DNA from: Linanthus parryae
Taxonomy: Eukaryota > Streptophyta > Magnoliopsida > Ericales > Polemoniaceae
Length of the DNA: 64,000 nucleotides
Assembly: GCA_023055425.1 (NCBI GenBank)
Contig: JALGPY010000002.1
Span: forward strand, 47,329,321-47,393,320
Reading direction: 5' to 3'
Part shown: in pieces, positions 34,102-48,265 of the stretch
How positions within the stretch are numbered: position 1 is the first letter of the stretch
How the letters are laid out: each line of letters starts with the position of its first letter
The notes under the pieces: generated by a model
The model's database searches: none
The model's input: only the letters and a program-made list of their open reading frames with translations
Told to the model about the DNA's origin: nothing
Position numbers and translations under genes: made by a program

Positions 34102-34687
34102 TATAGAAGAATGTAATTAGGGTTACAGAGAAAGAAACGAGAGGTGAAGAGGATGAATCAATTTGGTAAAGTAACAGACTGATATCTCATTAATTCCTGA
34201 ATCGACTATTACATCATTTTATACTATCTTCTAATAGCATATAACATAATTGCATAACAGTCCTTGTACTTCTAACAACATTACAATATACCATTTACTT
34301 CTTGGGAATGAAGTACTCTAAAACTCCTTCTGGTTTTGTTCTTAGTCAAACCAAATATGCTACAGAAATCTTGCTCAAGGCCGGTCTCCTTGAATGTAAA
34401 CCTGTTCCTACTCCCATGGCGACTAAAGTTGAAGCATCTCCTGATTTTACTCCCTTGGACAAACCAGGCTCTGATACCATATAGAAGAATGTAATTAGGG
34501 TTACAGAGAAAGAAACGAGAGGTGAAGAGGATGAATCAATTTGGTAAAGTAACAGACTGATATCTCATTAATTCCTGAATCGACTATTACATCATTTTAT
34601 ACTATCTTCTAATAGCATATAACATAATTGCATAACAGTCCTTGTACTTCTAACAACATTACAATATACCATTTGTATTCTTTAACA
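34102..34687 (-). mobile_element. Mini LTR retrotransposon enclosing an antisense copia RT piece
   Basis: The right LTR is 34480-34687. The left LTR is 34102-34296 and lacks the last 13 bases of the right copy. The shared 195 bases look identical. A 5-bp duplication CTAGG flanks the element (34097-34101 and 34688-34692). Just left of the right LTR, 34467-34479 is GGCTCTGATACCA, the reverse complement of an initiator-Met primer site, so the element runs on the minus strand. The interior (34297-34466) encodes, on the plus strand, a piece of copia RT with SGFVLSQTKYATEILLKAGL and CKPVPTPM. There is no complete gene; movement would need outside enzymes. Confidence 0.85.
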
Positions 34688-36049: not shown

Positions 36050-36675
36050 TGTGCACAAGAGATTCCGGCGGGGAGACCTCCGCGTGCACCGTGTGTAGTG
36101 GATCAAGGATCGCACAGGAAGAGTAGGGGTGTGTGTAGGGAGAGAGTAAGTCAGTAGCAATGTCTGAGAGAGAGACAGAGGTTTGGCAGAGCTTCCGCGT
36201 ATGGCAGTGTGTTCTCCTTTGTATGGAAAGGTTGACGATCTATATATACTGGAGAACGTGACCGTTAAAGTGTGGTTAATGCGCCCATTAATGGCGGCTT
36301 AATTAGCTTAACCATAACGGCACGTTCGTCCGAGTATATAGGAACCGTTAGAGCACGTGGTGCGCGGATACCGGAACCGTTACGAGATTGACCGGGTTTG
36401 ACCGGATTGACCGGGTCTAGGGAGCTCGTGCCATAGATCTCTCAAAACAGTTACTAAAGGTCGCGTGCGGGCTTGGCTCGCACGCGACAGGGCTTACTCT
36501 AGCCTCCAAACCACTAAGTCCCTACAAGTCCCGTGCAGTGGCATGCGAGGGCTCTGTCTCGCAGCCCCCACATGGATCAGCTCGGCTGGTGATCCTGTGT
36601 GTATGGAGCACAATATGGTGTGCTGGATGGTTGCCACGTGGCCAAGATCTGTCATGTCAGAAAGCAGTATCTACA
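36050..36675 (-). repeat. 3' LTR of the Tat-type element
   Basis: 626 bp, TGTAGATACTGC at its start and CTTGTGCACA at its end on the minus strand. It is almost identical to 47640-48265. It contains TATATATACT near 36240 and several CACGTG or CGTG words. The open frames within it recur in the other LTR and are not genes. Confidence 0.95.
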
Positions 36676-36690
36676 TTAGCCCCCTTTCTG
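36676..36690 (-). promoter_or_regulatory. Polypurine tract of the Tat-type element
   Basis: On the minus strand AGAAAGGGGGCTAA stands directly before the 3' LTR, the position where plus-strand DNA synthesis is primed. Confidence 0.75.
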
Positions 36691-37352
36691 CGCGTGAAGG
36701 CTCATAGCCGTATAGACTTCCATGCGCGGAAACCAACATGCGCGTCGCCGCCACGCACCAATTCAAATACGGGTAGATTCAGCCCCCGTGCGTGTCATTA
36801 TGACCTAAAACCCCTAGAGTCGTGCCGTCTGACCTTTAGGGTTTTAGGCGTGACGTCAGCTTGTCCTGTGATTGCGCGATTCGACGGTGACGGTTGCGAT
36901 TCGACTACTGAAGAGACGCAACCCTTCATTCTTTTGGATAAATACCTTGTATGCCCATTATTGCAAAGCATCACTTCTTTCTCATAAAGTGAATGGTACC
37001 CGGAGATCTTCGAGAGCAGATCCAGATAATCAATCACCAGTTCAGAACTGCAAATCGTATTCTTCAATTGTGCATATCCAAGCAGGCTTCAAGAAAACAA
37101 GGTTGGCCTCGTTTACTTTTGATTTAAGATACCAGTGTTTGCCTTGAACTGTGTTGAATCTGTGAATCCATGAATTTTGTGAAGAGGCTTTGATCTTTGA
37201 ACCCGCTTCGTTTTAATCTTTCAACAATATTGGATCTTGCAACTCCCCGATTTCTGAAATCGGTACCGGAACTGTTCGTTAGATCTCGAATTCCAAAATT
37301 CAAACTGAAGTGTGGTATTTCTCCCCCCTTTTTTTCTTGCTCTTCCGCAGGA

Positions 37353-40300
37353 ATGGCCAAGACAAGAGTAACCAGACCCGTCAAGGAAGATGAAGAGATA
37401 CCCGAGCTTCCGCAGGCCTTGTGGCGAAAAGCCCCCTTTCTGGGTGGGAAAGATTATTACCATGCGAGGGTAAAGGCGAAGAGGATGCCTGATCCTGTTC
37501 CAGTTGAGCGATTGCTGACGTTGACTCGCCCAGTTAACTCAGCCCTGCTCGAGTGGGTTGGTTCCGAGGATGTAGTTCGATTGGGGATCGAAAACGGGCA
37601 CTTCCCATACACTGCGATTTCTACTCAGGCATTCGTCCAGAAATTGGACTATATGGATGAGTGGATTGACCACGTATTGGATCATCACGCCGAGACTCTT
37701 AATGAGGCCGGCGTATACTTTGCTATCCAGGCTATGAAGGGCGCTGCCGTGAAGTTGGATCAGTCCATGCTTCTAGACCTTCTGTCCCGTTACTCGCCTG
37801 CGACTCATACGTTCCATTTTGCTGAGTTCGAGGCTGCCCCTACGCTCGAGGACGTGCAAATGCTGTACGAGCTTTCCCCCATGGGCGAGGTAGACCCTCT
37901 GAGTCCCTTGAGGACATCCGCAGAGATTGCCTTGTACACGCAGATGGAGGAATGCCTAGCAGAGGTGAAGAAAATTTCCACTCGGTGGGCTACTACGAAG
38001 CCTCTTCCGAATTGGCAGTTGGTCGATACGTCTGCAAAGAATACCTGGAACAAATGGTTGCAGTACTTCTTCCGAGACTATGCGAACATCAGCATTACTA
38101 AGAAGCTTCTGAACGAGGACCCGGAGGCCGAGAATTACGTAAAGGGCAAGGGCTACCATTTGACCCTTTGTGCTTTTCTCTGTGCCTGGCTGTCAAGGTA
38201 TTTGATTGATGGTCACCCCCATGATGGAGTCTTCTACCATGTGTTGCCTCTTGCTGTGAGGCTCGCTCTTGGCCTGAGGGTCGCACTCGGACCCTTGGTC
38301 TTGGGTACGCTGTACTATAGGCTTGATCAGCTGGTTCTGGCTATGAGGGAGTCGCGTGGCCGCCTCGATGTACTGACCTTTGTCAATATTTCCTTTTTGA
38401 CAATGTGGGTGTTCGAGCGCTGGCCGTCTTATGCTCCAACTGCTCTCCAACTTGAAAAGTGGTGTCCCCCAGGCGAGACAGAAGCACGTAACAGCGGAAG
38501 AGCTGCGAGATGGTTCGGAACAGGCAACCCCAAGTGCGTTTGGAGTTTGATATGCGACAAACGGAAGGAGTTTACTGCCAGGCCCTATGCCACGCGTATT
38601 GAGAATGTGAGATGGTTTCCAAAGCTGTACCCCTCTAAAGGCATGGTCTTTTTAGAAGAGCTTCTCTTTGAAAGGGGACCTCATTTCCATGAGCGCTACC
38701 GCGAGTTCTTTTGCTGGTGTCTGCGAGGTTCCCTTCCTGCCCTCGCAGAGCATATCCGTGAGCTCGCGCCGAGGTATGAGAAGATCACCGTGGACGTTGA
38801 CCCCACTAGAGTTTCTCCTCAGTTTGGTTTTGATGCGGTGGCCCCATCAATCTGGCCCCAGTCCATTGTCAGAGGATGCTACAAGCGCTTGCTAACAAAG
38901 GAGTGCGAGACGGTTTTCATGAACAATCTCCCTTTTGAGCAGCCTGCGGGAACCCGTGAGGGTGGTTGTTCCCAGAACTGGCTCGCATATTGGGTTGCCC
39001 AGCGAACGAGGATCGAGACAGAGTCGGCCGCGCAGCCGGGTAAAGCTCCCTTGATCAAAAGAAATTCTTTTCCGTTTCGCCCCACTTGCAGTCTGAGTGA
39101 GTCTGAGTATGGTTGCTACTCACTGTGGGACCGTGAGAACCATCTGTGCCCTGATTTCATTCTGAAGGAGCAGGTCGCCGCAATCAAGAAAGGCGACGCG
39201 CAGGTCGTCAGATACAGCAAGGCTTTTGCTGATGTAAGCAATTACTTCGCATGTGTTAAGTTTTCTCAATTTCCTTGTGCTGACACTATTATTCTGTACT
39301 GTTGTAGTGTCATGTGCGGAGATTCGCAGCTGGTGATCGCTCCAAGTCGCTGGTCAACACCATCGTTGCCACCAGAAGACAACAGCAGCCGTTCCGGCTT
39401 TCATGGAGGATGGACGCTGAGGTCGAAACAAAGGTTCGCGCAGTCATGAATGTTTTTACTGACTCGCTGATAGACAATCCTCCGGCTTCTCTCCTCCCGG
39501 AGATGACCCGTCTCCTCCAGCGACTGCGGCGCCAAGAGTGAAGAGACCTAGGCAAAAGGGAATTACGATTTCTTCCCCTAGGAGTGCTCCAGCTTCTCCC
39601 CCAGTGAGGTCCCTTTCTATCAAGGACAAAGGCAAGGGTCGCATGCCCAGCAAAGTGCGAAAAGATCTCGCAGTTGAGACTTTCGTTCCATTCAACCAAG
39701 AGGAAGAGGAAGAGAGGCAGGAGCCCCAGGCAAGTGATGAAGAAGAAGAAGCAACAGTTGTGATGCGCGAGGAAGAGTCAGGAGGTACTTCCGTCGCATC
39801 TCCTTGCCCTTCATCATGATTTCTTTGCAATTCTTTTCTTTGAACCAACTGTGTACTCGCAGATGATGATGATGAAGCCGTCGGTGGCCTTGTGGCCAAG
39901 AGTCAAAAGAGAGATACCCATTCTAGCATTTCAGATGATCCCATAAGTGAGGATGTTCTTGCTGAGTCCCGGAAGACAGCTGCGGAGGCTGCTGAAAGAA
40001 GAAGGCAGCAAGAGGAAGAGGAGCTCGAGCGTGTGAAACAGCGGAGCCTGGAAGAGCAGCATGTTGACGACTTAGTGCGTCCAGTTGGTGAGGAAGACGA
40101 GCTTCCCGAAGAAGTGGCTCCTCATGTGGAGGAGGAAGATGAGGTTCTCGGAGAGGATGCAGCAGCACTAGAGCAAGTCCAAGCGGACTTCGAAGAGATC
40201 GCAGGCGGCGACAAAGGTGAGATCTTCAATCTCGCAGTAACTTATAGAGATGTAATTGTGGGTGCGTTAAAGCACGGCGTGTCAAAGCCTGACATTCGCC

Positions 40301-41645
40301 GTTGGTTGGTAGGCAAATGCGGAGAACCCTCAGGTAATTATTTGAGTGATATGCACATACTAGGCTGTAGCCACTTGAGGCAAAATCATGACTGGTTTAC
40401 TCGCATCCCAGGTCACGCTTCTCTTAAAGATTTGCTTAGTGAGGACACACTGATAGGGCACAGTTCCACGTCCCTAGTGTATGATGAGGATACCTCAATC
40501 CCACCTTCGCGTGGAGGTGCTTGCTCTTAGCTTTAGTACAGATAACGAAATAACTTATCGCACAAGTTACCTCATCTCATCGCATTTGATGTCGCAGGTC
40601 ACGCTGAGGAACCTGAGCTGGAGCAGAGAAGTCAGCCTTCTGCATCCTATGTTCCGATTCCGAGCTCCCATACCGAGAAGCCCGTCGCAGCTGCTGGACA
40701 CGTAAGTGAGCCTCACGAGGATGTCATCGATCTTTCCGATGATGTCGAAGCTGATGCTGTGCCGATGGACGAAGGTGTCCGTACCGGTGCTGACGAGGTA
40801 AGGACAACTGCTGCTAATGCTTCCGCATCCAAGAGTGTCCTACGACAAGCGACTTCGACTGTCCCTTCGCCTCCGGCGATGGCTGAGTCAGAGGCACCCA
40901 TTCCTGCGTGGAGCTTTTGGGGCTCGCAGGTTGGGAATGTAGTCGGAGCTGGTGCGGCCTACACTCTTCCTCCCGACTATGAGAGGTTGGAACTCGCAGC
41001 TGATAGGAGAGCCATGGAGCGAGGGCAGTCTTCGAACAACCCGGTGGCCCGCATTCCTTCTCTTCATGAGATTCTGGAAGGCACTGGTAAGTAAAGATTT
41101 ACCGTTCGCACGTCGCATTATTTGACTTGCGAGTTTTGACATCATAACTCATTTTTGACGTCTCCTCAGGTTTGAAGCAAACCGATGTAGACTGGGTGGT
41201 TCGGATGCGTCTCAGATACCCCCGATCGTTTGTGAGATCTCTGGAGATCGGGCCTTTTGACAGGAGGCTATTCCTTACTGAAGCCATCTGGATACTGGAG
41301 CAGCTATCTGCGGCTACTCCTGCGACCATTTCGGTCCAGAGTGCTGAATTGCTATGCGGCATGTGCCAAAACCTCGTGACCAAAGTCCAAGGCAGAATGG
41401 GCTTTAAGTTTCTTAAGGACAGAGTCACGCTGATTCGCGCGGCTGTAACTTTGAAACTTGGTCACCAGAATCTCGCAGCTGAGATGCAGAAGGTGGAGCA
41501 GCAGAAGCAAAAAGTTGATGAAGCTCTGAAGCTGTATCACGAGATGAATGCCAAGTGCGAGCTACTGAAGCAAGAAGTGAAGCAAGTGGAGAAGTTGAGC
41601 GAGCAGTTCGCGCCCCAAGACTCCTTAATCAAGAATTTGCTTTGA
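37353..41645 (+). CDS. Plant mobile domain (PMD) protein carried antisense inside the retrotransposon
   Basis: The ATG at 37353 follows a TCTTCCGCAG acceptor. Exons: 37353-39233, 39308-39784, 39863-40333, 40412-40516, 40598-41086, 41170-41645. The first intron is phase 0 and the other four phase 1, all GT-AG with short pyrimidine-rich acceptors. Exon 1 (627 residues) holds the PMD region, recognised by THTFHFAEFEAAPTLEDVQM after DQSMLLDLLSRYSP and by a long helical W-rich domain. Exons 2-5 are acidic and low-complexity (EEEEERQEPQASDEEEE, RRRQQEEEELERVKQRS). The last exon ends in a coiled coil (KVEQQKQKVDEALKLYHEMN). One defect is seen: between 39440 and 39475 the frame shifts, through a small indel or an unrecognised splice. 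Host PMD proteins such as MAIN and MAIL1 act in silencing and gene expression; the role here is unknown. I infer its transcription is independent of the element's own. Confidence 0.8.
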
Positions 41646-42599
41646 TTTTTCTGAGTCTTGAAAAATAGCAAGGGAATAGCTGAAACATTAATGTAACGTT
41701 TTGAAACATTAACGTAATGTTGCTAGGGTTTCTCCCCCTTTTTTTTAACAAGAACAATGAACTTTCCCGTTTTGCCCTTTTTCGGGATTTGATTGGACAT
41801 TTCTGTGCATATCCAATTATGACATCAGCAGTTGATTCTCTGCTTGATTTTCGCGCTAATTTCTCGGCAGATAAGCACGCTTCCGTTGGGAAGTCCATCC
41901 GAATCATGACTATCCGTCATTTATTAGGATACGCAACTGAATCGTCGTAGCCTTTAGTAGGGTAATTGATTGTTACCGCTTTTCAAGGCGTAAGTGATTG
42001 AACTTACCCTCTTTTTGAATTTTGCTGACTCATCTTAGGCAACCGAAGAGTCTCCACAGGGTCTATATAAACCCTGTCTTTGCTATTTGGGTTCTTCATC
42101 CCAAACATGTGCTTTGCCGTGAGTCCTTACGACTGCTGGCTTCAACGCTTGTTTTTCGTTGATTCATGGCAACTTCAAGTTTTGAATCCTGAGTTTGCGC
42201 TTTGAAACCGGTGGGTTCATCCTTTGCAGTCCGGGTTTCCGTACTGTGTCTCTATTGGCTTACCAGCCACTTTTCGAATGTATTGTAAGCCATGTTGGCT
42301 GCGTAGTTAGATTCGAGCTTTTCGCTTGTAAGCTGCTATCTAGGCAGATAAATTGTAAGTCATTTGACTCGTAATGATAAATAGCTTTCTGTATTGTCTG
42401 CTGTCTCTTTACAACAGAATACAATTTCGCACGCGTTTCGGTGTATTTCGCCTTGCATAATGCTATGTAATTGTTTCGCATCTGCGATATATTGATTTGC
42501 TGATGCTTTGCTAGATCGTTCGAGATCAGACTTTTCGCAGTTGTGCCATCATAGCGGATGGGCTTGTTGTTGCCCGTTGCAAATCATTTAAGATTATGT
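41646..42599. other. Non-coding part of the Tat-type element
   Basis: This stretch lies between the antisense PMD gene and the tandem array. It includes GGGTCTATATAAACCCTGTC (42059-42078), a TATA-like palindromic word, and no supported reading frame. Confidence 0.55.
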
Positions 42600-43500
42600 T
42601 CACAACATTGTTATCGTAACAGATAGTCTTTAGCAGATCAATTAAGATCATTAAGTGGTGCGAACTGCTATCACAAAAGATAGGCTTTATTAGCGAACTG
42701 CTTGAGATCGCATCTCGCATAAATTGCTATCGCAACAGATAGACTTTTAGAAGATCCAGTAAGATTATCTTGCGCATGCGTTTCCATCGTATCAGAGGCT
42801 TGGGTGATAAATTAAAATCACTTTGCATATGAGTTGCTATCGTAACAGGCAGGCTTGAGAGAATCAGGTAAAATTGTTTTGTGTATGAGTTGCTATCGTA
42901 ACAGATAGGCTTTAATGAAAAATTGAGATCGCATTTGCGTTTAGCTGCTATCGTGAGAGATAGGCTTTGCATGATCAATTAAGATCGTATTTTTGTTTGA
43001 CTGCTATCGTATGAGATAGGCTTTGGATGATCAATTAAGATCGCATTTGCGTCGGCTGCTATCGTGAGAGATAGGCTTTGCATGATCAATTAAGATCGTA
43101 TTTTTGTTTGACTGCTATCGTATGAGATAGGCTTTGGATGATCAATTAAGATCGCATTTGCGTCGGCTGCTATCATGAGAGATAGGCTTTAGATGATCAA
43201 TTAAGATCGCATTGGCGCTTGGCTGCTATCGTAGGAGATAGGCTTCAGATGATCAATTAAGATCGCATTTGCGTTTGGCTGCTATCGTAAGAGATAGGCT
43301 TTGGATGATCAATTAAGATCGCATTTGCGTTGGCTGCTATCATGAGAGATAGGCTTTAGATGATCAATTAAGATCGCATTGGCGCTTGGCTGCTATCGTA
43401 GGAGATAGGCTTCAGATGATCAATTAAGATCGCATTTGCGCTTGGCTGCTATCGTAAGAGATAGGCTTTGGATGATCACTCAAGATCGCATTGCATTGGC
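42600..43500. repeat. Satellite-like tandem array of ~57-bp units
   Basis: About 15 units each contain GCTGCTATCGTxxGAGATAGG, CTTTxxATGATCAATTAAGA and TCGCATTTGCG. Units on the right are very alike, and those on the left (42600-42900) decay progressively. Two-unit (about 113 bp) and three-unit blocks repeat, showing recent higher-order duplication. It lies just downstream of the integrase stop in the element's 3' untranslated region. Confidence 0.92.
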
Positions 43501-43725
43501 CGCTATTTTAGCGAATAAACTATTGTTAACAGTAATAACAAATCAAATAGAGCAACATAAACAGCTAGAAATATGAACTTCTCATTTGGGAGAATTCTTT
43601 TATTATAACGCTCTCATATGGGAGAGATGGGATTACAATCCTCTCATATGGGAGAGGAGATTGCGTAAATCATAGCCACATGAGACATTTAGCACGTTAT
43701 CATAAAACGTATGAAATAAGAGAAG

Positions 43726-45311
43726 TCAGGGATAGTACTTCTTGATCCAACGCATGTTGATTGAGCTGGGAGTTGAGGTTGTACCGTGCAACCTTCGTAT
43801 GCTGCAGTAGCCACTATCGAAGACTTCTGTGACTTCGAAGGGTCCTTCCCAATTAGCTGCGAACTTTGGGTGAGTTGCTTCTCGCATGCAGTGATCAGAT
43901 GCGCGCAAGACCAAGTCTCCGACTGCGAAATCCCTTCGCTGAACCGTCTTGTTGTAGGCGCGAGCGATTCTTTCCTGGTACCGTTTGTTGGTCCTTTTGG
44001 CTTGTTCTCGCTTCTCTTCCAGCAAGATTAAGTCATGATCGCGTTGATTTTCACAGAGTGCATGGAAGGCCAGCCTTGCCGAGTTGACTCTAACTTCCGC
44101 AGGTACCACAGCTTCGGCCCCATAACATAGTAGAAATGGCGAGGCCCCTGTGGGTGTCCTTGGAGAAGTTCTGTAGGCCCACAGAGCTATGCTTAGAGAG
44201 TCGGCCCACTTCTTGTGGTCGTCTGCGACCATTTTGCTCAATATTCTCAACAGCGTCTTGTTAGTCGCTTCGGCTTGTCCGTTTCCCTTTGGGTAGTAAG
44301 GGGTAGAACATATCTGCCTGATATTGTACTCCGCTAATTTCGCAGCTACCTGGCGATTAACAAAAGGAGTACCGTTATCTGAAAGAATGGTGTTTGGGAT
44401 TCCGAACCTGCATACGATGCTTTCCTGGATGAAATTGACCACAGCCAGCGCATTTGCCGTCTTTAGTGGTATTGCTTCCACCCACTTGGTAAACAGCTCG
44501 GTCGCGGTGAGAATGAAATGATTCCCATGCGACGTCGGTCGGATGGGCCCGATGAAGTCCAGAGCCCATGTGTGAAATGGCCACGGCGTCCCTAATGCAT
44601 GTAAATCCACGGCGGGGGCGTGCACTAGGTTCCCTTTGAATTGGCATTCTTGGCAGCGTCGCACTTTGGTGCGGCAATCGACTTCCATTGTGGGCCAGAA
44701 GTATCCGATTGAGAGGAGCTGTCTGCATAATTTCGCACCTCCTTGGTGTTCCACCTGATGAGAAAGGTCCATGACTTCTTGTGCTTCTCTGCCGTCTAGA
44801 CATCGCAGCAAGTTGCCCTCGTGACCTCTTCGCCAAAGGAGGTTTTCCTGTACCACGTATCGAGACGCTTTCCTTTTTAATTTTTCTGCTTCTTTTCTCG
44901 ATTCAGGCACTGTGCCCTGGGTAAGGAAATCGAACAGTGGCTTCCTCCAATCTGTGTCGTCGTCGATTAAAGCGACGAGTAGAGAGTCTTTGATTAGTGC
45001 GCAACTTTCGCATTTTCCTTGTATCAGGGCTGCAGCTGTTGACATGCCTGGCCAATGGATGCCATATCTCTGAGCCTTTCTGTAGATTGACACCTCGCTT
45101 TCTCCGCAAGCGTGTTGGTGAATCTTTTCTAACAGCTGTTGTCCCTCTTGCTCGGAGACACATCGCATGAGTATTCCTCCAGGACCCTTGTAGTAAAGGG
45201 TGTTGTCGTGGATGCAGTATCCTTTTGTGAGTGCCCAGCTTTCGCTGCTGGTGCCTTTTGCAATAGCTTGCAGGACCCTTGTAGTAAAGGGTGTTGTCGT
45301 GGATGCGGTAT
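43726..45311 (-). CDS. Integrase of the Tat-type element with two zinc-binding modules
   Basis: Integrase inserts element cDNA into the chromosome. Reading the minus strand, two successive H2C2-type modules appear. One has LYYKGPGGILMRCVSEQEGQ, then KIHQHACG and GKCESC. The other has LLRCLDGREAQEVMDLSHQV and RRCQECQ. The catalytic core has WALDFIGPI (first D), ILSDNGTPFVN (second D) and GNGQAEATNKTLL (E), so the DD-E triad is intact, and a GDLVLRASD C-terminal domain follows. It stops at 43726. The open frame continues into the deletion scar at 45176-45311 and cannot join RT or RNase H, which are absent. Whether it is translated depends on readthrough of the gag-protease break. Confidence 0.9.
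45176..45311 (-). repeat. RT/RNase H deletion scar with duplicated segment
   Basis: The words CAGGACCCTTGTAGTAAAGG plus GTGTTGTCGTGGATGC occur at about 45179-45214 and again at about 45272-45307, 93-95 bp apart. The second copy is joined directly to the end of the protease region (minus-strand WNDRIVEIP). The roughly 2 kb that should encode RT and RNase H is missing here. Confidence 0.85.
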
Positions 45312-46001
45312 CTCGACTATTCTGTCGTTCCAGATAGCTTTCATAACCTGGTGAGCCGTCGAAGGGACTGCGTCGAAGCGATGAATCCAGGCTCGACCTA
45401 TAATCATGTGGTATGTGGTGTTCGCGTCTATGACATAGAACTTCGCCGAGCACTTGATCTTGCCAATCTGGACGCCCAGGCGGATCCACCCGATCGTCAT
45501 TCTAGAGTCGCTTCCGAATCCCACCAGTGGAGATGGACGTTTGACTACCTTGTGCTCGGGGATCCCTGCTAGCTTCAGTGTGTGGAGTGGGACAACGTTG
45601 ACTGCTGCTCCTCCATCGACGAATGCTCGCTTGAATTCGACGCCATTGACGATGGCGGTCACGTACAGAGGCCTCTGGTGACTCGCATCCGTCTTCTTGT
45701 CGCTGGCAGAAAAGGTCATGATCTTTTCTGTGGAACGAGACGCCCTGATGACTTTCCCGTTGGAGACTACGAGGTCCTCCTCGTAGTCCTCCGCTATCCT
45801 TAAGATTGCTTTCGTCATATCAGCCCGGCACCTCTCGGAGAAATTCATCTCGTCGAAGAACTTGCTGAAGCCGTGCGACCCTTTCATGCGGTCGGCACGT
45901 TCATCCTCCGTGTCCATGCTATAGTCTTCGTCTTGATGGACCTCAGCAATGATGGGCAGACCATCCTCTGCGACTTCCTCCAAGTCTACGATCGAGATCA
46001 T
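45312..46001 (-). CDS. Aspartic protease region of the Tat-type element
   Basis: This is the pol protease that matures the polyprotein. The minus-strand reading from 46001 (ISIVDLEEVAEDGLPII) continues through DYSMDTEDERADRMKGSHGF to the active-site block AFVDGGAAVNVVPLHTLKLA, where DGG stands for the usual D-S/T-G, as also in the sister fragment at 2410-2628. It then runs through VGFGSDSRMTIGWIRLGV and MIIGRAWIHRFDAVP, ending at WNDRIVEIP. It is in a different frame from gag because of one extra base near 46037. Beyond 45312 the frame enters the duplicated scar and loses homology. Confidence 0.82.
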
Positions 46002-47598
46002 GGCGACCTCTTTGCCTTTCGAGCCTGACTCTGTATGGGGCAGGAAGTGGGTTGTTGCGCACGTCCTTCCTGTTGTCGCTGACGATTAGCTCGCCGTTCT
46101 TCATCTTCTGATCGAACGCGAACCTGAGTTTCTTGCACTCGGCGGTGGGATGCATGATCTTGCCGTGGTACTCGCACCACTTAGGGTCCCTCACCATCTC
46201 CTTGGAGGGTGCTTTCTCGAGCGGTGGCAGGACGCCGTCCTTGCGCCATTGTTTGCAGAGGTCACTCGCTTCCTCTGCCGAGCATGGCAGAGGTGGTACA
46301 TCGAAGTTCACAACCTTCGCTTGTTTCTGGGGCGAAACTGTGTTGATTTCAGCTTCGCGTCCCCGCTTGTAGCTGAACCTTCCGATCTTGTAAGTGGTGC
46401 CGCTCGCAGGTCGCTCTGGAGCGTTCTTCTTTTTCTGTCTCTCGACTATGGGCTCGATGTTCTTCGTGCATTCGATTAGTTTTGAAAACGTAGGTGTTTG
46501 CAAATTAATGAGCATACCTTTGTATTCATCTCGCATGCACTGTAGGCATATCTCCACGAGCCGGCTTTCGGGCATTGGATCTTTGCACTCCAAGGATTTC
46601 GCCCGGAATTTCTTGATGAAGGTGATCCCATCCTCCTCGCGCTTCTGATACATCCGCGAGAGATGGATCATTGTCACATTTTCCTCCATTTGAAAGAACT
46701 TGGTATAGAACTTTTGGACCATGTCGTCCCAAGTCTTCACGGATCCGGCCTCCAATGTCCGGTACCATTTGTATGCTACGTTCCCAAGAGATTTTGGGAA
46801 CTCTAGCATCAGCAGCTTGGAATCGGCTCCGTACGGACCCATGACATCAATGAAACGCATGACATGCTCATGAGCGTTTCCATTGACGTCTTCGAACTTA
46901 TCCCATTTGGGAGCCTTGTACCCCGCCGGGTTAGGCATGAGATAGATCTCTCGTGGAATGGGTGGATCATTGTCTAGCTTCGGGATAATGGTATCCGCGA
47001 ATGACTGATGAGCCAGGATGGTGTCCACGCGCTTTTGCAAAGACGTCATGCATTCTGGAATGCTTCCCTCGGTAGTCGCCGGAGGGGTTGCCGTAGGCGG
47101 TGGCGACACGTATGCCGTCGGAGGATTGGGAGCATACTGAGTACCCGCGTTTCCCCTGATCATCGTTGGGGGAGGCAAAGGGTACTGCAAAGTTGGCTTG
47201 GACGCCAAAGCCGAGGGCTGAAGAGCGTGGGCAGCAGGAGGCAGCATTTGTGCCGTCGATCCTTGAACCGAAGGAAGTTGCGCAGCCGACGGTGGAGTCT
47301 GCAGATGAGGGTTGGGAGGGGTGGCTGGCGCTCCCAATCCTGGAGCAGTAGGGGTTCCTCCTCCTTGAGGGATAGCGGTGGCTGGCGGAGGATTTGGTGC
47401 GAGGGTGCCTAGAACAGCCAAGATTTGTTCTAGTTGTGCGGATTGAGACTTGAGAGCTTTCGCCTGACTTTGGACGGTAGCGTCCAAAGACTCTAGCGTT
47501 GGTGCTTCGCCGGGAGTCGTCGGAGTACGGCGGGTCTCGTCTCCTGAGGGGGTTTCGGTGGAAGGCGACCGGTTGCTGACATCATCCTCCTGAGACAT
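45943..47598 (-). CDS. Gag of the Tat-type element
   Basis: Gag is the particle-forming structural protein. The ATG at 47598 lies only 41 bases after the 5' LTR. Residues 1-190 are low-complexity, rich in proline, alanine and threonine. The gag core follows (EIYLMPNPAGYKAPKWDKFE, MRFIDVMGPYGAD, KSLGNVAYKWYR, MVQKFYTKFFQMEE, IHLSRMYQKREEDG). Next come LVEICLQCMRDEYKGMLINL, a basic RFSYKRGREAEINTV stretch and a zinc-binding-like WCEYHGKIMHPTAECKKL. After NNPLPA the frame is wrong: compared with the sister copy at 2920-3095, one extra base in a run of four G (plus strand, 46037-46040) displaces protease. The gag part itself is intact. Confidence 0.9.
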   Translation of the reverse strand: MSQEDDVSNRSPSTETPSGDETRRTPTTPGEAPTLESLDATVQSQAKALKSQSAQLEQILAVLGTLAPNPPPATAIPQGGGTPTAPGLGAPATPPNPHLQTPPSAAQLPSVQGSTAQMLPPAAHALQPSALASKPTLQYPLPPPTMIRGNAGTQYAPNPPTAYVSPPPTATPPATTEGSIPECMTSLQKRVDTILAHQSFADTIIPKLDNDPPIPREIYLMPNPAGYKAPKWDKFEDVNGNAHEHVMRFIDVMGPYGADSKLLMLEFPKSLGNVAYKWYRTLEAGSVKTWDDMVQKFYTKFFQMEENVTMIHLSRMYQKREEDGITFIKKFRAKSLECKDPMPESRLVEICLQCMRDEYKGMLINLQTPTFSKLIECTKNIEPIVERQKKKNAPERPASGTTYKIGRFSYKRGREAEINTVSPQKQAKVVNFDVPPLPCSAEEASDLCKQWRKDGVLPPLEKAPSKEMVRDPKWCEYHGKIMHPTAECKKLRFAFDQKMKNGELIVSDNRKDVRNNPLPAPYRVRLERQRGRHDLDRRLGGSRRGWSAHHC

Positions 47599-47619
47599 GG
47601 TTGCTTTTGCCGGTAAGAT

Positions 47620-47636
47620 TCACGTCGGGTTCACCA
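47620..47636 (-). promoter_or_regulatory. Primer-binding site of the Tat-type element
   Basis: Three bases after the 5' LTR the minus strand reads TGGTGAACCCGACGTGA, starting with the TGG that pairs with a tRNA CCA end. I cannot assign the tRNA with confidence; it is not the initiator-Met type used by the copia and TRIM elements here. Confidence 0.65.
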
Positions 47637-47639
47637 AAA

Positions 47640-48265
47640 TGTGCACAAGAGATTCCGGCGGGGAGACCTCCGCGTGCACCGTGTGTAGTGGATCAAGGAT
47701 CGCACAGGAAGAGTAGGGGTGTGTGTAGGGAGAGAGTAAGTCAGTAGCAATGTCTGAGAGAGAGACAGAGGTTTGGCAGAGCTTCCGCGTATGGCAGTGT
47801 GTTCTCCTTTGTATGGAAAGGTTGACGATCTATATATACTGGAGAACGTGACCGTTGTAGTGTGGTTAATGCGCCCATTAATGGCGGCTTAATTAGCTTA
47901 ACCATAACGGCACGTTCGTCCGAGTATATAGGAACCGTTAGAGCACGTGGTGCGCGGATACCGGAACCGTTACGAGATTGACCGGGTTTGACCGGATTGA
48001 CCGGGTCTAGGGAGCTCGTGCCATAGATCTCTCAAAACAGTTACTAAAGGTCGCGTGCGGGCTTGGCTCGCACGCGACAGGGCTTACTCTAGCCTCCAAA
48101 CCACTAAGTCCCTACAAGTCCCGTGCAGTGGCATGCGAGGGCTCTGTCTCGCAGCCCCCACATGGATCAGCTCGGCTGGTGATCCTGTGTGTATGGAGCA
48201 CAATATGGTGTGCTGGATGGTTGCCACGTGGCCAAGATCTGTCATGTCAGAAAGCAGTATCTACA
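47640..48265 (-). repeat. 5' LTR of the Tat-type element
   Basis: 626 bp, differing from 36050-36675 only at two adjacent bases. It directs minus-strand transcription of gag and pol. The right border meets the second CCCCC of the target duplication. Confidence 0.95.

Follow-up and report, generated by a model that had tools for sequence, protein, structure and literature searches.

The 64,000-nucleotide stretch of the Linanthus parryae genome analyzed here (the window, from contig JALGPY010000002.1) contains a long terminal repeat (LTR) retrotransposon of the Ty3/gypsy type at positions 36050-48265 and, within it, on the plus strand and opposite to gag-pol, a gene for a plant mobile domain (PMD) protein. 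The gene runs from an ATG at 37353 to a stop codon that ends at 41645, and lies between pol and the 3' LTR, the position and orientation of an antisense accessory open reading frame (aORF-3R). The window protein matches the PMD model PF10536 at 93 bits (E 2.7e-26), where the gathering cut-off is 34.9 bits, and one sister copy scores 93.3 bits; the domain named in the original prediction, made from the letters of the window alone, is thus recovered by profile search. That prediction also described six exons and five introns, four of them in phase 1, a structure that holds across family copies as documented below, and a length of about 1.2 thousand codons, which has to be revised to nearer 1,300 (the exons in the window sum to 3,899 nt). 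Table 1 lists the features of the gene and of its carrier.

Table 1. Features of the PMD gene and of the LTR element that carries it, in window coordinates.
Feature	Position	Strand	Basis or remark
3' LTR (left copy)	36050..36675	-	identity to right LTR; gag-pol read on minus strand
Upstream region, putative antisense promoter and 5' UTR	36676..37352	+	promoter role inferred
Exon 1 (627 codons), encodes the PMD	37353..39233	+	PF10536 match
Intron 1, phase 0, 74 nt	39234..39307	+	borders across copies
Exon 2, one-base deletion private to window copy	39308..39784	+	copy alignment
Intron 2, phase 1	39785..39862	+	borders across copies
Exon 3, acidic linker	39863..40333	+	copy alignment
Intron 3, phase 1, open in frame	40334..40411	+	borders across copies
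Exon 4	40412..40516	+	copy alignment
Intron 4, phase 1	40517..40597	+	borders across copies
Exon 5, least constrained exon	40598..41086	+	omega
Intron 5, phase 1, 83 nt	41087..41169	+	borders across copies
Exon 6, predicted C-terminal coiled coil	41170..41645	+	heptad pattern; dN/dS
Non-coding array of tandem repeats (~56 nt x 11) that separates the PMD gene from pol	42891..43506	.	repeat scan
Integrase ORF (rve, H2C2)	43726..45501	-	Pfam matches
Protease-like ORF	45129..46085	-	aspartyl protease matches under Pfam cut-offs
gag ORF	45943..47619	-	Retrotrans_gag E 9.3e-8
5' LTR (right copy)	47640..48265	-	identity to left LTR; TSD CCCCC outside both LTRs

Exons 1 and 2 were searched as DNA against the 1.51 Gb genome, and the best 40 of 7,650 first-look candidates were scored. 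All 40 are 97-100% identical over query positions 1-2093 and all hold exons 1 and 2, in a search that itself selects gene-bearing copies. The copy set used below comprises 30 loci including the window, the other 29 being those most similar to it in exons 1 and 2. GT and AG border intron 1 in all 30; intron 2 shows GT in 30 of 30 and AG in each of the 29 listed sequences, both borders of intron 3 are present in 29 of 30, and intron 4 has GT in 30 of 30 (one within a disturbed stretch) and AG in 29 of 30. For intron 5 and exon 6 the set is 12 sequences, the window and 11 copies (L059, which gave no alignment, was left out), with GT in 12 of 12 and AG in 11 of 12. Intron 5 is the sole phase-1 intron whose removal shifts the frame, and intron 3 is open in frame, so that its retention is possible. 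The C-terminal coiled coil of the original prediction finds support in the heptad pattern of exon 6, whose best 35 residues are matched by 0.05% of shuffles of the stretch, a figure made optimistic by picking the best window. Ahead of the gene, the upstream region holds TGACGTCA at ~36851 and a TATA-like stretch at ~36937, which may be promoter motifs.

The window copy is itself broken. The one-base deletion in exon 2 is absent from all 29 other copies, and because of it the spliced frame of the window ends at codon 705. The same deletion, revealed by the copies, accounts for the frame mismatch between exons 2 and 3 in the window; with intron 1 fixed, 376 options fit for an intron joining the two exons, and none of those listed is convincing. 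Of the 29 other copies, 19 keep an open frame of 786-788 codons across spliced exons 1 and 2 and 10 have it broken, proportions biased toward open copies by a sample drawn from those nearest the window.

Selection on the gene was measured as omega, comparing parsimony changes on the copy tree with the neutral ratio given by the change spectrum of the LTR and upstream region. On internal branches exon 1 has 118 synonymous and 30 nonsynonymous changes and no stop (omega 0.088), with 114 of the 148 changes at third codon positions; on terminal branches the counts are 128, 112 and 4 stops (omega 0.302). The same columns read in the wrong frames give 1.66-3.64, and a non-coding block read as codons gives 0.876 and 0.984. 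Internal omega is 0.195 for exon 2, 0.222 for exon 3, 0.179 for exon 4 (34 codons) and 0.494 for the first 115 codons of exon 5; the terminal values are 0.626, 0.536, 1.107 and, for part of exon 5, 0.733. Recomputed without three long-branch copies (L030, L032, L053), exon 1 gives 0.106 internal and 0.346 terminal, and exons 2 to 5 give 0.272, 0.303, 0.215 and 0.643 internal. Binomial probabilities, optimistic in that changes are taken as independent, are 6e-43 for exon 1 internal branches, 2e-4 for exon 5 and 0.22 for the non-coding control. Pairwise Nei-Gojobori dN/dS has a median of 0.100 and a range of 0.014-0.643 over 427 of 435 pairs, the other eight having been dropped for fewer than five synonymous changes. 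Exon 6 gives 0.103 (66 pairs, 12 sequences), with 1.12 and 1.87 in the wrong frames and 0.89 in the 3' flank, and the last 76 codons of exon 5 give 0.256 by pairs.

Divergence from the window averages 2.5% in exon 1, 3.4% in intron 1, 2.5% and then, in its second half, 6.2% in exon 2, 8.2%, 10.2% and 13.9% in exons 3, 4 and 5, 19.9%, 11.3% and 13.0% in introns 2, 3 and 4, 5.5% in the LTR and 6.1% in the upstream region. By divergence alone, exons 3-5 cannot be told from the introns, and the choice of query partly accounts for the low value of exon 1, since intron 1, which lies within the query, is low as well. Query bias leaves unexplained both the contrast between synonymous and nonsynonymous changes and the constraint on exon 6, which lies outside the query. 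Relative to the window, the 29 copies have two insertions or deletions (indels) in the 1,881 nt of exon 1, a few in exon 3 and two in exon 4, against 128 in the 677-nt upstream region (shared ones counted per copy). Exon 6 has none in 11 copies, as against 26 in the 3' flank, even though the flank has fewer substitutions (3.8% versus 5.3%).

That the PMD gene is kept by purifying selection at the level of the family is strongly supported, with dN/dS well below 1 across copies. The claim that it is selected rather than drifting therefore stands for the family and fails for the window copy, which exemplifies decay of the gene after insertion. Antisense transcripts of retrotransposons can be regulatory (PMC7264820), and antisense transcription alone might matter, through double-stranded RNA, siRNA or promoter interference, with the protein incidental; such a role is contradicted by the constraint on amino acids, seen in exon 1 on internal branches, in the excess of third-position changes and in exon 6, and we consider it very improbable. 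We likewise give hardly any credence to recent capture of a host PMD gene that is now decaying inside the element. The broken window copy and the 10 broken relatives fit such decay, but exons 1-2 and introns 1-4 are common to the 29 other copies with few exceptions, internal branches carry no stops, the dN/dS values contradict it, and none of 15 other PMD open reading frames (ORFs) compared from the genome is a close counterpart. The introns, too, would be easier to explain by a long stay in the element, or by uptake of genomic DNA instead of mRNA.

In the single pair of copies with pol data, dN/dS is 0.111 for PMD exon 1, 0.106 for integrase and 0.431 for gag (25, 11 and 27 changes), so that in this one pair the PMD is about as tightly constrained as integrase. 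This equality would suit a nuclear life-cycle factor that helps to import the integration complex or anchors integrase on particular chromatin. GENE23, the antisense accessory protein of Grande, is nuclear, and reviewers have proposed roles of this sort (PMC7264820). We nevertheless judge this improbable, since the PMD gene is a separate antisense unit with its own introns, outside the gag-pol product, and its predicted fold, described below, points toward VANC21; a tether that binds DNA is conceivable.

The carrier element was predicted to be a TSD-bounded gypsy retrotransposon. Its two 626-nt LTRs are identical at 624 of 626 positions, and the target site duplication (TSD) CCCCC, weak evidence alone for its low complexity, flanks both sides. 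Counting both LTR differences as separate changes, at 1.3e-8 per site per year, the insertion is about 0.12 million years old. LTRs, TSD, gag and, on the strand opposite to the PMD gene, integrase are all in place, protease falls below Pfam cut-offs, and reverse transcriptase (RT) and RNase H, which belong between the protease-like ORF and integrase, are gone from the window and present in a sister copy. That copy, L055, has ~2.5 kb extra between protease and integrase, holding RVT_1, RT_RNaseH (418-518) and a second RNase H (RVT_3, 570-687). A second RNase H between RNase H and integrase is the signature of the Tat lineage (Neumann 2019, PMC6317226), and its presence ahead of integrase in L055 supports placement of the family in that lineage (Ogre or Retand type), to which the original prediction had likened it. 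At the deletion junction, a 42-nt stretch (45271-45312) has a further match in the sister copy, on the side of the deletion nearer integrase, which suggests recombination or template switching between repeats. Among five further sister copies sampled at the break point, L071 runs ~60 nt beyond it with the deletion absent, L068 has another deletion near it, L070 and L072 end before it, and the match of L069 is to a separate part and in opposite orientation. Outside the element, two identical 195-nt direct repeats (34102-34296 and 34480-34674) lie 378 nt apart.

On predicted models, the PMD has the fold of VANC21: it matches the crystallised DUF1985-containing part of that protein (9lnj). The well-predicted PMD model came from L001, a locus in a genomic PMD cluster. 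Two alignments were built, A1 from the window PMD and 15 other PMD ORFs, and A2 from L001 and 16 others. Sequence searches of the PDB with the window PMD and A1 as queries gave no match at E<=1, a viral structure library gave none at E<=0.001 (best E 1.3), and none of 7,995 candidates scored from a protein database is a homologue at E<=0.001. The VANC domain family, DUF1985, is itself abundant in this genome, with at least 150 matches (150 of 686 candidates were scored); many are 592-codon frames on many contigs, which suggests a multicopy element.

Our preferred reading, whose chances we put a little short of even, is that the PMD gene serves a Tat-lineage gypsy element as an accessory gene and that its VANC21-fold product binds non-coding DNA of its own family and counters silencing. 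Anti-silencing is preferred because of the anatomy, a non-coding array beside the gene, together with the VANC21-like fold. The gene would be transcribed from its own promoter next to the 3' LTR, and the transcript spliced into six exons encoding a protein of ~1,300 residues. Its N-terminal PMD would bind DNA, and the acidic linker and coiled coil may provide spacing and self-association. The leading candidate for the target within the family's non-coding DNA is the 56-nt tandem repeat array, and bound DNA would be spared silent marks, much as VANDAL21 is by VANC21. The gene structure, the purifying selection, the PMD match, the likeness of predicted folds and the repeat array are demonstrated; transcription, splicing, nuclear entry, DNA binding and anti-silencing we infer. 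Action in trans could also serve defective copies such as that in the window; a VANC-like trans factor would fit young copies that lack RT, yet those copies need RT in trans anyway. That an element-encoded PMD could interfere with host silencing was already part of the original prediction, and the predicted fold, via VANC21, offers it independent support.

Several observations weigh against this reading. Exon 5 is weakly constrained, as its internal omega over the first 115 codons indicates, and that first part has 14 indels over the 29 copies, 12 of them not multiples of three. The model of the window PMD has a mean pLDDT of 54.8 and reaches a Foldseek E of only 0.16. Profile comparison of PMD and DUF1985 (PF09331) by hhalign gives E 0.0012-0.0021 with probabilities of only 13% and 19%, and DUF1985 is absent from the Pfam matches of the window protein at E<=0.1. 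A shared fold, moreover, shows no function. No short motif in the non-coding parts of the element rises above shuffle maxima; TCGCAT, found 8 times outside the array where 1.8 are expected, stays below them. Finally, MAIN and MAIL1, which have been studied more than any other PMD proteins, act in favour of silencing (PMC5418596, PMC7156037).

With the motif search no better than shuffles, and with MAIN and MAIL1 promoting silencing and gene expression, the host PMD pathway becomes a serious rival, though on balance an unlikely one. The element PMD would then join or mimic complexes of the MAIN/MAIL1-PP7L type, blocking them as a dominant negative or restraining the copy number of its own family. 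MAIN and MAIL1 function with PP7L in transposable element (TE) silencing and gene expression (PMC5418596, PMC7156037), the PMD fold is common to both sides, and the genome has at least 127 PMD matches, some in gene clusters. The element PMD, however, shares just 19-30% identity with the 15 other PMD ORFs of this genome that were compared, a wide gap for a mimic, and a self-restraining protein would be hard to maintain by selection within the element lineage.

Long and often open PMD frames, many scoring 250-377 bits to PF10536, cluster at G000 C57:126.3-127.7 Mb, C46:154.9-155.9 Mb and C2:29.2-29.9 Mb. Nothing resembling the gag, RT or integrase of the element was found in 24 PMD loci of ~4 kb examined, and the clustered frames are apparently host genes. 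The best match to the element PMD among 24 loci compared, L009 (G000:C57:122937000-122941500), is a 678-codon PMD frame, 30-31% identical over 538 aligned positions, with no similar gag, RT or integrase within 9 kb downstream; it is possibly a domesticated relative. The window PMD groups with L009 in a PMD tree (100/99), on which, given a long-branch warning, no claim rests.

Earlier publications describe PMD genes inside gypsy elements as well as antisense accessory genes. PMD occurs in 57% of Ogre elements (Neumann 2019, PMC6317226), and PMD-A clades are described as exclusively gypsy-encoded (Ikeda 2017); like the window element, these gypsy PMD genes (PMD-A, Ogre eORFs) place PF10536 within a gypsy/Tat retrotransposon. 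The antisense ORFs of Grande (gene23, which has its own promoter), RIRE2, Retand (ORF4) and PvRetro13 share with the PMD gene their position and orientation and are conserved across copies, as it is among the copies compared here. Apart from transposase_28 (Retand) and SMC (PvRetro13) domains, a review of antisense ORFs reports no clear similarity for these proteins, whereas the window gene has a PMD and five introns. A protein encoded by a 5' aORF of the sunflower Tekay element, likewise a conserved gypsy accessory ORF, was interpreted from its predicted structure as a modulator of silencing; it is a sense 5' ORF in a chromovirus, unlike the antisense PMD gene, and its maize and sorghum relatives resemble dsRNA-binding proteins, not VANC (PMC11728184). 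A 2021 review already suggests that TEs turn PMDs of their own against silencing; it classes the PMD among domains of unknown function and regards how MAIN and MAIL1 act as largely unknown (PMC8616336). At a meeting in 2021 a VANC21 structure was announced ahead of publication (PMC8756742). A structural link between PMD and VANC or DUF1985 was not found in the literature searched, which included few subscription papers or preprints, and the paper behind 9lnj may state it; no paper there treats DUF1985 and the plant mobile domain together, and those naming both VANC21 and the plant mobile domain draw no structural link in their available text. PMD proteins reportedly act with DNA motifs against Polycomb silencing.

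The closest comparison is with VANC21 and VANC6. Like the PMD gene, these are genes borne by an element with non-coding tandem repeats, and the fold of VANC21 is matched by the predicted PMD fold; VANC21 binds short motifs dense in the non-coding tandem repeats of VANDAL21, with loss of methylation as the result (PMC5735166, PMC10398659). They differ in being DUF1985 proteins, a family to which the window PMD has no Pfam match at E<=0.1, and in their carrier, a VANDAL (Mutator-like) DNA transposon rather than a gypsy LTR element. MAIN and MAIL1 have their Pfam domain in common with the element PMD and are host genes with a positive role in both silencing and gene expression. It is possible, though we would sooner doubt than assert it, that PMD and VANC/DUF1985 belong to a single ancient superfamily of sequence-specific DNA-binding modules, carried by transposons, with which LTR retrotransposons (PMD) and DNA transposons (VANC) shield their own non-coding DNA from silencing, MAIN and MAIL1 being domesticated members. 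With its predicted fold matched to that of a DNA-bound protein that counters silencing, the function of the PMD can be put to a direct binding test and, if the likeness is true, element-encoded anti-silencing of the VANC kind would extend from DNA transposons to LTR retrotransposons.
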